From assembly GCA_022652545.1 (NCBI GenBank), contig JALCRM010000003.1:142885-206884 (forward strand): a stretch of DNA of 64,000 nucleotides. The letters are read 5' to 3'. The stretch is from Lachnospiraceae bacterium. GTDB lineage: Bacteria > Bacillota > Clostridia > Lachnospirales > Lachnospiraceae. Shown piece after piece: positions 7,038 through 57,261 of this stretch. The notes under the pieces are model-generated. The model saw nothing but the letters and a program-made list of their open reading frames with translations. It had not been told where the DNA came from and did no database searches. The translations under genes were made by a program, and so were the position numbers. Positions within the stretch are counted from its first letter, which is position 1. Each line of letters begins with the position of its first letter.

Positions 7038-7060
7038 ACAGGCCGGCTGCCGGCTTGTTT
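7038..7060 (+). terminator. Probable terminator after cvfB
   Basis: ACAGGCCGG pairs with CCGGCTTGT (one G-U) around a CTG loop and runs into TTGTTTTGA. The U tract is short and overlaps the -35 box of the next promoter, so efficiency is uncertain. Confidence 0.5.
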
Positions 7061-7086
7061 TGACAGCACGGCAATCATGCTATAAT
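7060..7086 (+). promoter_or_regulatory. Promoter of the repeat leader and CPBP gene
   Basis: TTGACA at 7060-7065 and TATAAT at 7081-7086 preceded by TG (extended -10). The spacer is only 15 bases, which the extended -10 may compensate. The transcript would start just before repeat copy A. Confidence 0.65.
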
Positions 7087-7114
7087 GAAAAAACATCCGC
7101 ATCCGCGCAGGTAC

Positions 7115-7237
7115 ATGCCGCTGATGCGGCACTTTCAAACCGCAGCAGCGGTGCTGACGCACCGGCTGCAACAGCGGCGCGAAGTGTTGCCGATGTTCAT
7201 TTCGGAGAATCTGAAGATTCTCCTCATGGAGGGATAA
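7115..7237 (+). repeat. RBS-hairpin leader element, copy A (also a 40-codon ORF)
   Basis: This is the first of two tandem copies. Its parts in order are: TGCGG/CCGCA stem; a bulged stem GCAGC-AG-CGGTGC, loop TGAC, GCACCG-GCTGC (7142-7169); then the hairpin GGAGAATC/TGAA/GATTCTCC (7204-7223), linker TCAT and the Shine-Dalgarno sequence GGAGGG (7228-7233). The copy is also an open frame from ATG 7115 to TAA 7237, encoding 40 residues beginning MPLMRHFQTAAAVL and ending ISENLKILLMEG. Copies B (7240), C (34729) and D (57172) share its 3' half. Confidence 0.8.
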
Positions 7238-7239
7238 GT

Positions 7240-7341
7240 TTGAAATTGCCGCTGATGCGGCTCTTTCAAACCGCAGCATCGGTGCTGGCGCACCGGCTGC
7301 CCATTTCGGAGAATCTGAAGATTCTCCTCATGGAGGGAGAT
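7240..7341 (+). repeat. RBS-hairpin leader element, copy B
   Basis: Near-identical to copy A in its shared parts. It has the bulged stem GCAGC-AT-CGGTGC, loop TGGC, GCACCG-GCTGC (7273-7300), the hairpin GGAGAATC/TGAA/GATTCTCC (7308-7327), linker TCAT and SD GGAGGG (7332-7337), four bases before the CPBP ATG. Copy A's 28-base insert between the two hairpins is missing here. The frame corresponding to copy A's ORF stays open into the CPBP gene, so a TTG at 7240, served by copy A's SD, could add 34 residues to that protein. Confidence 0.8.
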
Positions 7342-8322
7342 ATGTCATCAAAAAAAGCGGGAAGCCTGTTTCTGACTGCTGTTTTGCTGGATCTTATCGT
7401 TTATGTACTGGCTGCCGGAGCGGCCGGCTATTTTCCCTGGCTGTATGATATGGTGCCTTCTTCGGTACTTTCCGAAGGTGTTCTGGTGCTGCCTCTGCTC
7501 ATTTTTGCGCTCTGCACGCCGGCGCGCTTTTGCGAGATGTTCCCGTTCCGCAGGATCAGGATCCCGGTGATCCTCCTTTCGCTGCTCCTCATGGCAGTCC
7601 TGCTCCCGATGATGGTGCTCTGCAACTGGCTCACCATGCTGGTCACGAGCAATACGGCGGCCCTGCTCAGCGGCTCCATCACGGCGGAACCGATGTGGCT
7701 GATGATCCTCATCGTGGGTGTGATCGCTCCCTTCTGTGAAGAGATCGCGTTCCGCGGCTATATTTTCAGCTCCTTCCGCACGACCGGCCGCATCTTCGGT
7801 TCGGCTGTCCTCTCTGCACTTCTTTTCGGCCTGATGCATATGAACCTGAACCAGACCTGCTACACCTTCGCGGTGGGCATTTTCTGGGCACTGGCGGTGG
7901 AAGCGAGCGGAAGTCTCTGGACCTCCGTCCTCATGCACATGTCGTTCAATACAGTCGAAGTACTGAGCATGTACTACACCCTGGATCTGCAGACCGACGG
8001 GAGCGCCGGACAGCTGGTCAACGCTCTCGAGGGCAGTGCGGACATGCAGAGCTCCTCGCTCATGATCCTCTGCATCATGGCTGCAGCCGGCGTTGTACTG
8101 GCCGTACTGCTTCTGCACGCGATCGCCGCCCTGCAGGGCAGGCCTTTCGGCATAAGGCGCCGGAAGAATGCGGCTTCCCCGGCCTTCCAGGGGGAACCTG
8201 ATGCTTCAGCATCAGGCTCTGATGCGGCTGTTTCCTCAGCCGCATTATGTAACATCCCGCTCCTGCTCGGGATCCTGCTGAGCGTCGCCTACATAGCGCT
8301 CTCCCTTTGGCTGGTGCCCTGA
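7342..8322 (+). CDS. CPBP-family intramembrane metalloprotease
   Basis: A 326-residue, very hydrophobic protein with about eight membrane segments. It carries the three CPBP (Abi/CAAX protease-like) motifs: EEIAFRG (about residue 134), FGLMHMNLNQ and HMSFN, which hold the catalytic Glu and metal-binding His residues. Members process prenylated or peptide substrates in membranes; some act in bacteriocin immunity or regulated proteolysis. The substrate cannot be told. The start at ATG 7342 follows copy B's GGAGGG; a TTG start at 7240 is the alternative. A Ser/Ala-rich cytosolic segment near the C-terminus is encoded by two strong palindromes. Confidence 0.85.
   Translation: MSSKKAGSLFLTAVLLDLIVYVLAAGAAGYFPWLYDMVPSSVLSEGVLVLPLLIFALCTPARFCEMFPFRRIRIPVILLSLLLMAVLLPMMVLCNWLTMLVTSNTAALLSGSITAEPMWLMILIVGVIAPFCEEIAFRGYIFSSFRTTGRIFGSAVLSALLFGLMHMNLNQTCYTFAVGIFWALAVEASGSLWTSVLMHMSFNTVEVLSMYYTLDLQTDGSAGQLVNALEGSADMQSSSLMILCIMAAAGVVLAVLLLHAIAALQGRPFGIRRRKNAASPAFQGEPDASASGSDAAVSSAALCNIPLLLGILLSVAYIALSLWLVP
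8197..8245 (+). repeat. Two palindromes inside the 3' end of the CPBP gene
   Basis: CCTGATGC/TTCA/GCATCAGG (8197-8216, 8-bp stem) is followed at once by ATGCGGCTG/TTTCCT/CAGCCGCAT (8222-8245, 9-bp stem). The second resembles the 5' stem of the upstream leader element (GATGCGGCTCTTTC in copy B, GATGCGGCTGTTTC here). They encode the low-complexity linker EPDASASGSDAAVSSAA. Confidence 0.55.
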
Positions 8323-12635: not shown

Positions 12636-14480
12636 ATGGAAAATAACAGTAACGAAAATATGGAAGACAGCTGCATACCGCAGTTCGGGACAGCAAACGG
12701 ACAGCAGCCCGTCGCGCAGTCCGGGACACAGCCGGGCACACAGTTTGACGCGCAGTCCGGGGCACAGCCGGGCGCGCAGTCCGACGCGCAGCCGTGGGCA
12801 CAGTCCGTCACCGCAGCCGGACCCGTCGCAGCTGCACAGGCTGCTTACAGAACGGCGCCGTCCTACGGCGCTGCGGGCAGCGGTGCGGGGACAGCTCCGC
12901 AGAGATCTTCGCAGACTGACGGACGGCCGCATCACATGAGCGGCCGGATCTTTTTCGGCGGTTTTCTTTCGGGACTGCTTGTCGCGGCCGTTCTTCTTTC
13001 GCTGGCTGCCGTCATCGGGCTGCGCAGCGGAACGCTGCTGCGTTTTGCGGAGCAGGCAGGCGCTTCGGCGGAAACATCCGGAAGCTCCCCGGCTGCCGCG
13101 CAGACTGCGGACAGTTCTTCCGCGATCAACAATCAGTCCGTTTCGAAACTGCAGCAGCTGGAGTCACTGATCGACAGCAAATATTACTATGCGGATGACG
13201 TGACCGTGCAGCAGAAGGAAGACGGCATGTACAGCGGCCTTCTGAAATCCCTGGACGACCCGTATTCCGTGTACTACAACGCGGATGAGCTGAAGGACCT
13301 GAATGCCTCCAGCGAGGGCGTGTTTTACGGCATCGGCGCCTATGTCACACTGGATCAGGAGACCCAGTATCCGCTTATCACGGGCACGGTAAAGGATTCA
13401 CCGGCGGAGAAGGCCGGACTGCAGGCCGGCGATATCATCTACAAGGTGGACGGTACCGACGTGGCAGGCAAGGACCTGGATGAAGTGGTCAACATGATCC
13501 ACGGCAAGGAAGGCACCAAGGTCAAACTGACGATCTACCGCAAGGGAGCGGCCGATTACATCCAGGTTGAGATCACAAGGGCAAAACAGAGCTCCACGAC
13601 TGTCTACTCCGAGATGCAGGACGGAAAGATCGGCTATATCGGCATCACGGAATTTGACGATGTGACAAGCGACCAGTTTGCCACAGCTCTGGCGGACCTG
13701 AAGGCACAGGGCATGAAAGGGCTGATCATAGACCTGCGCGGCAACCCCGGCGGCAATGTTACCACGGTGACCGCCATTGCACAGCAGATCCTGCCCAAGG
13801 GACTGATCTTCTACTGGGAAGAACGAAACGGAGAAAAGACGGAGTTCGACTGCGACGGCAGCAATGAGCTGCAGGTGCCGCTTACGGTACTGGTAAACCA
13901 GTATTCGGCCAGCGCTTCAGAGATCCTGTCAGGCGCTATCCAGGATTCCGGGATCGGCACGGTCATAGGGACGCAGACCTATGGGAAAGGCGTCGTGCAG
14001 GATGTTTACGACCTTAAGGACGGCACCGCTGTCAAACTGACCGTGGCAGCTTATTTTACGCGCAACGGCCGCGACATCAATCATAAGGGGATCACCCCTG
14101 ATATTGCACTGGACTTCGATACGGATGCCTATGCATCCGGCACGGATAACCAGCTGGAGGAGGCGCAGAAGGTCCTGAAGGAAAAGATCGACGGCACCTT
14201 CGACCTCGACAGTGAGAATGCCTCCATATCCGCTTCTGCGGATACGGCGTCCTCAGCGGAAACGGCTTCCACTGCCGGGCCCGCCGGCATCGCCGCCACT
14301 TCGGATACGGCATCCTCAGCGGAAACGGCATCTTCTGCGGATACGGCGTCTTCTGCAGAAACGTCATCCTCTGCGGACGAAGCGTCTTCTGCGGGAGCAG
14401 CTTCTTCCTCGGACACAGCTTCCTCGGCAGCCACGGGATCCTCTTCGGATACGGCGTCCACGGGAAAATCCGCAAAATAA
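12636..14480 (+). CDS. S41 C-terminal processing protease with repetitive flanks
   Basis: A 614-residue CtpA/B-type protease. Residues 1-105 are a Gln/Gly/Ala/Ser-rich cytosolic region with a repeating QSGAQPGAQS pattern. A membrane anchor follows at about 108-130, then a PDZ domain (TGTVKDSPAEKAGLQAGDII) and the S41 domain with LRGNPGG, the catalytic Ser in SASASE and the Lys in TYGKGVVQ. The last 90 residues are Ser/Ala/Thr/Asp-Glu repeats on the ASSADTASSAET theme. It completes the ftsEX-M23 group and may trim wall or division proteins. The tail is probably extracytoplasmic, like that of the MltG-like protein at 468. Confidence 0.9.
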   Translation: MENNSNENMEDSCIPQFGTANGQQPVAQSGTQPGTQFDAQSGAQPGAQSDAQPWAQSVTAAGPVAAAQAAYRTAPSYGAAGSGAGTAPQRSSQTDGRPHHMSGRIFFGGFLSGLLVAAVLLSLAAVIGLRSGTLLRFAEQAGASAETSGSSPAAAQTADSSSAINNQSVSKLQQLESLIDSKYYYADDVTVQQKEDGMYSGLLKSLDDPYSVYYNADELKDLNASSEGVFYGIGAYVTLDQETQYPLITGTVKDSPAEKAGLQAGDIIYKVDGTDVAGKDLDEVVNMIHGKEGTKVKLTIYRKGAADYIQVEITRAKQSSTTVYSEMQDGKIGYIGITEFDDVTSDQFATALADLKAQGMKGLIIDLRGNPGGNVTTVTAIAQQILPKGLIFYWEERNGEKTEFDCDGSNELQVPLTVLVNQYSASASEILSGAIQDSGIGTVIGTQTYGKGVVQDVYDLKDGTAVKLTVAAYFTRNGRDINHKGITPDIALDFDTDAYASGTDNQLEEAQKVLKEKIDGTFDLDSENASISASADTASSAETASTAGPAGIAATSDTASSAETASSADTASSAETSSSADEASSAGAASSSDTASSAATGSSSDTASTGKSAK

Positions 14481-33803: not shown

Positions 33804-34722
33804 AGCCAACATTTCTCTTCTTGCCATAACTTTTTTTGCGGCCCTGCAGTATGTGTTCCTGCAGGCTGTGCCATCTGACGTGTCGAATTTTGCGTTTCTC
33901 TTCGTTACCAATCTGATCGGCTTCATCTTTTCCCTGTTTTTCTTTTTCGGAGAATTGTTTCGTATAGACAGGCAGCAGGTGTTTTTCAGCATCCTGCTGG
34001 CAGCCGAACTTTTCTGCTTCAACCTTCTGCTCCTCATGGGATCGAGGGAGATGGATGCGACTGCAGTGGCGGGGATCGCCGCCATCTATTTTATTTTTAT
34101 CCCGATCATACTGATCATCCGGCACAGGAAGGTCGGCAAAGACTGTGTACAGGGGACCGTCCTGGTCCTCCTGGGCGTGCTGATGACGCTGGAGTTCAAT
34201 ACCGGCAGCATCCTGAACGTACATGTCATCTATCTGATCCTGGCGGATATCTGCGTGGCAGCCTACCTCCTGACGGTCGAACGGTTCTGCCAGCGGTCCA
34301 ACCCGGCGATCCTGGCCATGGGGCAGATGCTGTTCGGCAGTATTTTTGCATTTGCCGCCTGGTGCGCGGAGTCCGCGCTGGGCGGGACCCGGATGTCCCT
34401 GCCCCTGCAGCCGGCTTTCTGGAGCAGCGTGTTTTTTATCAGCTTCTTCATCCGCGGACTCTATGGTGTGGTCCAGATCTATGCGCAGCGCTATGTGAGC
34501 GCACTGAATACCTCTCTGATCTTTTCGACGGAAGTCATAATAACGCTGTTCCTTTCTCCGCTCCTGGCACAGCAGCTGGGTGTGAAGGCAGAGCCGGTGA
34601 CCCTGCTGAAAGTATTCGGCTGTCTGCTGATCGCGGCAGGGGTGCTTACCGCCGACGGGCTGCCGAAGCGTCTCATGACTCTTTACTACGGAGGCAGTAA
34701 GTCCGGAAGGAAGAAAGTTTGA
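33790..34722 (+). CDS. DMT-superfamily (EamA) transporter
   Basis: A 310-residue membrane protein with about ten hydrophobic helices arranged as two five-helix EamA halves, as in drug/metabolite transporters. The substrate cannot be predicted. The ATG at 33790 has GAGGCGG 6 bases upstream and lies inside the end of the DUF2156 gene; a GTG at 33775 is possible. Its stop codon (34720-34722) immediately precedes leader element copy C of the next gene. Confidence 0.83.
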   Translation: MNRLEANISLLAITFFAALQYVFLQAVPSDVSNFAFLFVTNLIGFIFSLFFFFGELFRIDRQQVFFSILLAAELFCFNLLLLMGSREMDATAVAGIAAIYFIFIPIILIIRHRKVGKDCVQGTVLVLLGVLMTLEFNTGSILNVHVIYLILADICVAAYLLTVERFCQRSNPAILAMGQMLFGSIFAFAAWCAESALGGTRMSLPLQPAFWSSVFFISFFIRGLYGVVQIYAQRYVSALNTSLIFSTEVIITLFLSPLLAQQLGVKAEPVTLLKVFGCLLIAAGVLTADGLPKRLMTLYYGGSKSGRKKV

Positions 34723-34777
34723 AAGCACTGCCGATGTTCATTTCAGAGAACCTGACGGTTCTCCGTATGGAGGTAAA
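34716..34777 (+). repeat. RBS-hairpin leader element, copy C (short)
   Basis: The shared sequence TGCCGATGTTCATTTC (34729-34744, as in copy A) leads into GAGAACC/TGAC/GGTTCTC (34746-34763, 7-bp stem), the linker and SD GGAGG (34769-34773), 4 bases before the next ATG. The bulged GCAGC/GCTGC stem of copies A, B and D is missing. AGTTTGAA at 34717 also matches the sequence before copy B. The copy's peptide frame (MFISENLTVLRMEVK) ends in TGA, overlapping the ATG of the next gene as ATGA. Confidence 0.7.
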
Positions 34778-57171: not shown

Positions 57172-57261
57172 CTGCGGCGGGGAAGAAACCGCAGCATCGG
57201 TGCCGACGCACCGGCTGCTCATTTCAGAGAACCTGAAGGTTCTCTTCATGGAGGGGAAAAA
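57172..57261 (+). repeat. RBS-hairpin leader element, copy D
   Basis: CTGCGG/CCGCAG stem, the bulged stem GCAGC-AT-CGGTGC, loop CGAC, GCACCG-GCTGC (57191-57218), the hairpin AGAGAACC/TGAA/GGTTCTCT (57226-57245), linker TCAT and SD GGAGGGG (57250-57256), 5 bases before the pgi ATG. Relative to copies A and B, two base pairs of the final hairpin change together (G-C to A-T and T-A to C-G), so pairing is preserved. Confidence 0.8.

Follow-up and report, generated by a model that had tools for sequence, protein, structure and literature searches.

A dispersed hairpin repeat that ends in its own Shine–Dalgarno sequence and probably spreads as a mobile element in Lachnospiraceae

The window, a 64,000-nucleotide stretch from the genome of a Lachnospiraceae bacterium, contains four copies (A to D) of a hairpin element that ends in a Shine–Dalgarno (SD) sequence (Table 1). 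Copies A (7116-7232) and B (7238-7336) stand back to back 5′ of a CPBP gene (Pfam Rce1-like), and copy D precedes pgi; sequence and family matches agree on this with a first-pass annotation of the window. The gene that follows the shorter copy C, which had been called unrelated, gave no family match. The annotation had described a hairpin (here H3), a TCAT or GTAT linker and GGAGG at the end of each copy, and a stem GCAGC-NN-CGGTGC/GCACCG-GCTGC in A, B and D with the loops TGAC, TGGC and CGAC, all of which the sequence bears out. It had not reported a first hairpin (H1), an optional module (M3) or a short outer helix in which the two leading G residues of the SD are paired. Two other features of the window were observed: a mechanical open reading frame with a TTG start (7060-8322, 420 aa) runs through copies A and B into the CPBP gene, and an array of an 18-nt direct repeat (family D1; 10 copies in register) occupies 14220-14464.

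Table 1. Positions of the parts of copies A to D within the window.
Copy	Feature	Position	Strand	Basis
A	H1 remnant (TGCCGC-TGAT-GCGGCA)	7116..7131	+	sequence, fold
A	hairpin H2 (GCAGC AG CGGTGC TGAC GCACCG GCTGC)	7142..7169	+	sequence, fold
A	optional module M3, imperfect hairpin	7170..7197	+	same module in other own-genome copies
A	hairpin H3	7204..7223	+	sequence, fold
A	element-borne SD GGAGG; copy B sits behind it	7228..7232	+	sequence
B	hairpin H1	7238..7271	+	sequence, fold, covariation
B	hairpin H2	7273..7300	+	sequence, fold, covariation
B	H3 (7308-7327) with 5′ side of outer helix, CCAT (7301-7304)	7301..7331	+	fold; SD-adjacent pair standard in 39/41 copies, three pair types
B	element-borne SD of the CPBP gene (ATG 7342)	7332..7336	+	sequence, ORF
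C	shortened copy: H1 piece joined to the last part of M3, followed by H3 and SD	about 34716..34773	+	sequence, comparison with other copies
C	H3	34745..34764	+	sequence
C	SD	34769..34773	+	sequence
C	ATG of downstream ORF	34778	+	sequence
D	copy without H1	about 57186..57254	+	sequence, fold, NCBIfam match for pgi
D	H2	57191..57218	+	sequence
D	H3	57226..57245	+	sequence
D	SD	57250..57254	+	sequence
D	ATG of pgi	57262	+	sequence

A full copy consists of H1, H2, the optional M3 and then CCAT-TTC-H3-TCAT-GGAGG, where H1 is GTTTGAAAG..GC-YGAT-GC..CTTTCAAAC and H2 is GCAGC AN CGGTGC..GCACCG GCTGC. RNA folding of A, B and D against shuffles gave z = -3.7, -4.1 and -3.0, respectively. The predicted outer helix around H3 takes in the first GG of the SD; in copy B, CCAT pairs with ATGG, the last two bases of which open the SD. 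The pair adjacent to the SD (CCX/YGGAGG) was readable in the 41 of 75 own-genome copies that fit the pattern used, and was A-T in 31, G-C in five, T-A in three (all from one array) and unpaired in two. The SD is thus a part of the element, a standard pair being kept next to it in 39 of these 41 copies. Two functional readings of the element were rejected. A hairpin CTCC-TCAT-GGAG that would hide the SD does not form in the minimum-energy folds of copies A, B and D. A leader peptide was suggested by two frames that are open in the copies of the window's own genome and of RUG554 (by eye), and was dropped because the copies of other species carry stops there.

The element is abundant in the window's own genome (G000; 2.67 Mb, 81% complete). 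BLAST of positions 7115-7345 returned 58 rows at E<=10; 48 were strong (E<=2.1e-12), two of them being the window's own A+B and D; a second BLAST query added loci, and the surrounding stretches were then re-searched with four query types. The merged set comprises 75 copies, five of them below 50 bits. They lie at 55 loci, 38 with one copy, 14 with two and 3 with three, and 75 is a lower bound because the re-search covered the window and the stretches around BLAST matches. At 52 of the 55 loci, the last copy ends in an SD 4-11 nt (mode 5) 5′ of an ATG that opens a reading frame of at least 100 codons, an arrangement found at 917 of 40000 random sites (2.3%) in the same fragments. The exceptions are C4:165041, a broken copy, C10:69354 and C1:178731, where the ATG lies 13 nt from the SD and opens 205 codons. 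Thus, the further copies that the annotation had expected exist, at positions and in orientations that are not random, and its proposal that the element runs in the sense of the gene and brings the ribosome-binding site holds at these 52 loci. Its spacing of 4-5 nt between GGAGG and ATG agrees with the mode and is too narrow for the genome-wide range.

The sense orientation at SDs, the strong folds and the covariation down to the SD-adjacent pair would all be expected of a cis-regulatory RNA leader family, such as a riboswitch, a thermometer or a protein-binding leader, that pairs the first bases of the SD and was spread by duplication; outside this species, CTC or CCTC is also often retained beside the SD at the foot of the last hairpin (by eye). 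For H1+H2, 29 copies chosen from several species show pairing in 92.2% of 754 cells; both sides have changed in 54 cells, against 16.9 in shuffles (0/500), while further pair types showed no excess (18 against 18.2). The covarying stems that the annotation had anticipated for an RNA family are therefore present in the hairpins as well as beside the SD; covariation alone would fit an RNA too.

The types of mismatch speak, if weakly, for the other side. If a stem were maintained at the RNA level alone, G-U should be accepted more readily than A-C. H1 has 12 G-U and 17 A-C among 660 cells (44 distinct hairpins with element-like arms), and in the own genome alone four and nine among 255. The counts before filtering were 17 and 21 of 795 (53 hairpins, including chance ones from unrelated genomes); the filter against chance hairpins also dropped one or more true own-genome copies, leaving the direction unchanged. 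In H3, 183 of 189 cells are Watson-Crick, two G-U and three A-C (27 distinct own-type hairpins). This lack of a wobble excess weakly favours a palindrome maintained at the DNA level, the support being weak in view of the relatedness of the copies and the young or decaying state of many of them. In individual copies, H1, H2 or H3 has been lost with the gene and the SD still in place; H3 has been lost and the SD kept at C10:82248, C2:153020 and C1:373960.

The genes behind the element also argue against a regulatory RNA. Downstream proteins were scanned at 15 of the 55 loci (10 in NCBIfam, eight in Pfam, three in both), and the common function expected of genes under a riboswitch was not found among them. 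The 12 with a family match are diverse in function (PGI, TrpS, AroQ, Asd, SufB, CPBP, FMN reductase, glycosyltransferase, NADH:flavin oxidoreductase, GH113, Pta-like and OppF-like proteins, the last two below curated cut-offs), and the remaining three had no family match. Among genus-mates, 21 of 22 asd orthologues have no recognizable copy in the 90-nt upstream stretch (by eye). A signal shared by these genes is thus unlikely, since they are diverse and the asd orthologues mostly lack the element. The asd gene of RUG227 (L317) has a hairpin element of a different kind, in the position that the element occupies in the window's genome; the gene may have been hit independently, or an old site may have been turned over. 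Rfam matched only a tRNA in the whole window, and its four matches at E<=10 to 7080-7360 all fell far below the gathering thresholds, in keeping with the annotation's statement that no named RNA family fits. What it had proposed as a new RNA family is indeed a structured, dispersed family with many copies; nevertheless, we favour a mobile repeat over a regulatory RNA and regard an RNA leader family as quite unlikely, also in view of the close relative described below, in which orthologous genes stand without the element.

That relative is RUG12688 (G452), which forms a close pair with RUG554 (G006). The joined flanks of eight insertions in RUG554 were searched in four genomes. Seven of the eight loci were found in RUG12688, and four of the eight insertions are missing there, two cleanly (L068 and L252) and two less so (L062 and L059), which is the presence and absence at orthologous sites that marks a MITE-type element. 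In RUG554, the occupied L068 site has the sequence ..GGTGCAGGGAGTAA|GTTTGAAAG....CTCATCGAGGTATAA|ATATGATC, and RUG12688 has kept GGTGCAGGGAGTAA 5′ of ATATGATC, together with a small tandem duplication. At L252, RUG12688 has GTGGAAGGTAGATATG; in RUG554, the left side keeps GGAAGG and the right side reads CAGCGGGGTATGG. In all four of the missing insertions, the host SD stands on the left and the element contributes an SD on the right; at L068 and L252 these two SDs differ. L062 can be aligned on both sides, but in each genome its own SD forms part of GCGGCA..GGGG, a sequence reminiscent of the end of some other hairpin element. L059 is clean at the SD and the right flank and differs further left. 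The other RUG12688 sites hold remnants of another hairpin element (L247 and L249) or only a short SD-like tail (L255, era), and the joined-flank search found no match for L251. A further RUG554 locus has two copies against one in RUG12688 (L091/L127). For six loci of the window's own genome, no empty site was resolved among 62 genus genomes, which include no close enough relative; the best short matches were about 82-86% identical.

The arrangement of the copies suggests where the element lands. An SD-like tetramer lies within 16 nt upstream of 16 of the 19 full-length first copies, and in some cases it is the SD of an earlier copy; among first copies that are truncated or of the M3 type, only seven of 36 have one. 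Of these 36, 18 start no more than 10 nt from a stop codon on their upstream side, against six of the 19 full-length ones. From these numbers we infer insertion behind an SD, followed by deletion from the left. The right ends of the element are nearly constant, and 36 of the 55 loci begin with a 5′-truncated or M3-type copy. Reverse transcription or rolling-circle (Y2) insertion would likewise give fixed right and variable left ends. Half of these shortened copies nevertheless start beside a stop codon, as deletion after insertion would explain equally well, and RVT_1 has matches in six and Y2_Tnp in two of 12 carrier genomes, so that we consider either route improbable.

Insertion behind the SD of an earlier copy would also account for arrays. 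Of 20 adjacent pairs, 11 have neighbours that score closer to copies elsewhere than to each other, four are closer to each other and five are mixed; the A-B pair of the window belongs to the 11 (a score of 70 between the two, against 165 and 177 with copies elsewhere). Separate insertions that became stacked explain most arrays, and tandem duplication some. As regards a target duplication, the spacers to the left and right of the element match at C20:17806 (CGGAA) and C1:175983 (AAC), and differ at C1:47711, C7:835 and C10:82248. At the first of these loci (G000 C20:17806-17906, L017), the upstream SD lies inside an apparent upstream gene, to which GTT TGA of the element gives a new stop one residue later (by eye). 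Copy D (window 57186) and the copy at G000 C1:418188 both lack H1, share the same first base (AAACCGCAGC) and have an SD-like sequence upstream, as if the shorter form were mobile too.

Relatives of the element are patchily distributed. A pattern scan for H1 covered 84,980 species genomes; among the matches listed, H1 stands 5′ of genes in named Lachnospiraceae and Clostridiales records, with scattered chance matches in other phyla. The exact H1 pattern, which misses diverged forms, occurs in 12 of 62 genomes of the genus and in four of 397 of the family. A covariance-model search of the same 397 genomes, with at most 12 candidates scored per genome, matched four, which are not all those found with the exact pattern. 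In RUG554, RUG14180, RUG285 and UBA7012, the last hairpin is wholly different, GGCAAAACCGC-ATNC-GCGGATTTTGCC or close to it, and GAGG, GGGG or a similar SD follows. In XPB1003, NC2008, RUI526 and others, H1 and H2 have been rebuilt too, and the order of hairpins, SD and ATG is kept. Searches of viral contigs with the last hairpin of the RUG554 type and with the own-type H3 plus SD gave no match, and their single match to the H1 pattern (L190) looks by eye like a terminator hairpin and lies in a phage-like contig; one query against plasmids and phages gave none. Such a patchy, species-specific distribution counts for a mobile repeat. A second hairpin element, with another last hairpin (GTGCCGC..GCGGCAC, then GGGG TATAAG), occupies the same kind of site at L137, L215, L256 and L051, either stacked with the H1-H2-H3 element or alone 5′ of an ATG.

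Many of these genomes are metagenome bins, and some contigs of relatives end inside copies, as they might if the family were an artefact of repeat assembly, or a product of recombination or gene conversion between similar SD regions, and not mobile. However, the copies of the own genome are embedded in long contigs with differing flanks, element-free sites exist, and records without a MAG label (NK3A20, XPB1003, NC2008 and Marseille-P6806) also carry H1 5′ of genes. A non-mobile origin is therefore very improbable.

The chemistry of the IS200/IS605 group, with hairpin ends, no terminal inverted repeats and oriented insertion 3′ of a short motif, invites comparison. The present element also has hairpins at its ends; these ends (GTTTGAAAG.. 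and ..GGAGG) are by eye not inverted repeats of each other, and the element appears to insert in one orientation behind a motif that recurs at its right end. An IS200/IS605-, REP- or PATE-like element, with a Y1 HUH transposase cutting behind GGAGG, would thus be a natural candidate. Yet Y1_Tnp gave no match in the window's own genome, nor in seven of the 12 exact-H1 carriers in all, including the fairly complete G448 (96%), G433 (96%) and G006 (93%), and it is rarer in the carriers (5/12) than in the other genomes of the genus (39/50). We therefore judge this candidate unlikely. Y2_Tnp was not found in 10 and RVT_1 in six of the 12 carriers; none of the three enzymes is universal among them, on counts from which incomplete bins could hide some enzyme genes. 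No larger copy with a coding gene inside it came to notice among the copies read for other purposes.

Similar small repeats are known from other bacteria. REP, BIME and REPIN sequences, which are moved by RAYT (TnpA_REP), are short, high-copy hairpin repeats with a short tag beside the hairpin. The present element resembles them in its short hairpins and high copy number, and the SD-like sequence upstream of 16 of the 19 full-length first copies, with the SD at the right end, could correspond to a short cleavage motif. It differs in its position 5′ of starts, in carrying an SD and in the seven of 12 carriers without a Y1_Tnp match. With MITEs, including those derived from IS200/IS605, it shares the dispersed, palindromic and apparently non-autonomous form of about 100 bp, but no terminal inverted repeats were seen and no partner IS was found, and its spacers agree at some loci and not at others, so that any target duplication would not be constant. 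The hairpins and partly paired SD recall translational riboswitches and RNA thermometers, from which the lack of an Rfam match, the unrelated genes and the insertion polymorphism set it apart. The closest known kind appears to be BOX, and the element is best described as a small interspersed repeat of the BOX/REP-like type. BOX of Streptococcus pneumoniae, treated together with RUP and SPRITE, is modular and structured, is judged parasitic, and is built of boxA, boxB and boxC modules with ends that have been likened to an IS (PMC3049150). Both are small, structured, interspersed repeats near genes with a variable number of modules; the likeness is one of description, and the portion of PMC3049150 available to us describes neither an SD position nor an SD end. 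Searches of the open-licence PMC literature, in narrow wording that makes absence weak evidence, found no repeats that target or carry SDs. On SDs, start codons and related groups, PMC12306157 gave passages about translation only, and PMC3733652 gave none.

We conclude, with considerable confidence, that the element is a non-autonomous mobile repeat that lands behind SDs and replaces the SD of the host with its own, rather than a dedicated regulatory RNA. This reading follows from the polymorphism between close relatives, the upstream SDs, the stacking of unlike copies, the species-specific stems, the unrelated genes and the loss of hairpins; a regulatory side effect may nonetheless exist. The repeat, of about 100-130 bp with a few hairpins (usually two to four) and its own SD at the end, would insert in the sense orientation into the few bases between the SD and start codon of a host gene. 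The old SD would be stranded upstream and that of the element would take over, so that the insertion would cost the gene little. A new copy could land behind the SD of an earlier one, producing stacks. Later deletions would trim away the left side, in many cases as far as the preceding stop codon, and would spare the SD because the gene now depends on it. Active transposition would presumably depend on a trans-acting enzyme, whose substrate would probably be single-stranded or circular DNA with the SD as its end or joint.

Mobile elements are noted mostly for their effects on promoters or for breaking genes. An element that replaces translation-initiation sites would represent a distinct way of coexisting with dense operons. 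More tentatively, with a chance that we put somewhat short of even, these repeats may belong to a class of Lachnospiraceae transposable elements that integrate at the ribosome-binding site: a recombinase would recognize the folded DNA of the element and join it behind an SD, and the end of the element would serve as a working translation start, allowing spread through operons with little damage. The copies of the window's own genome may also mislead annotation by producing false N-terminal extensions, since they are open in two frames. If such a class exists, the related shapes in other genera would represent an old lineage that changes its stems and keeps its landing site. Many genes of these bacteria would then have been handed the same mobile ribosome-binding site, which would offer a testable route to a new recombinase.
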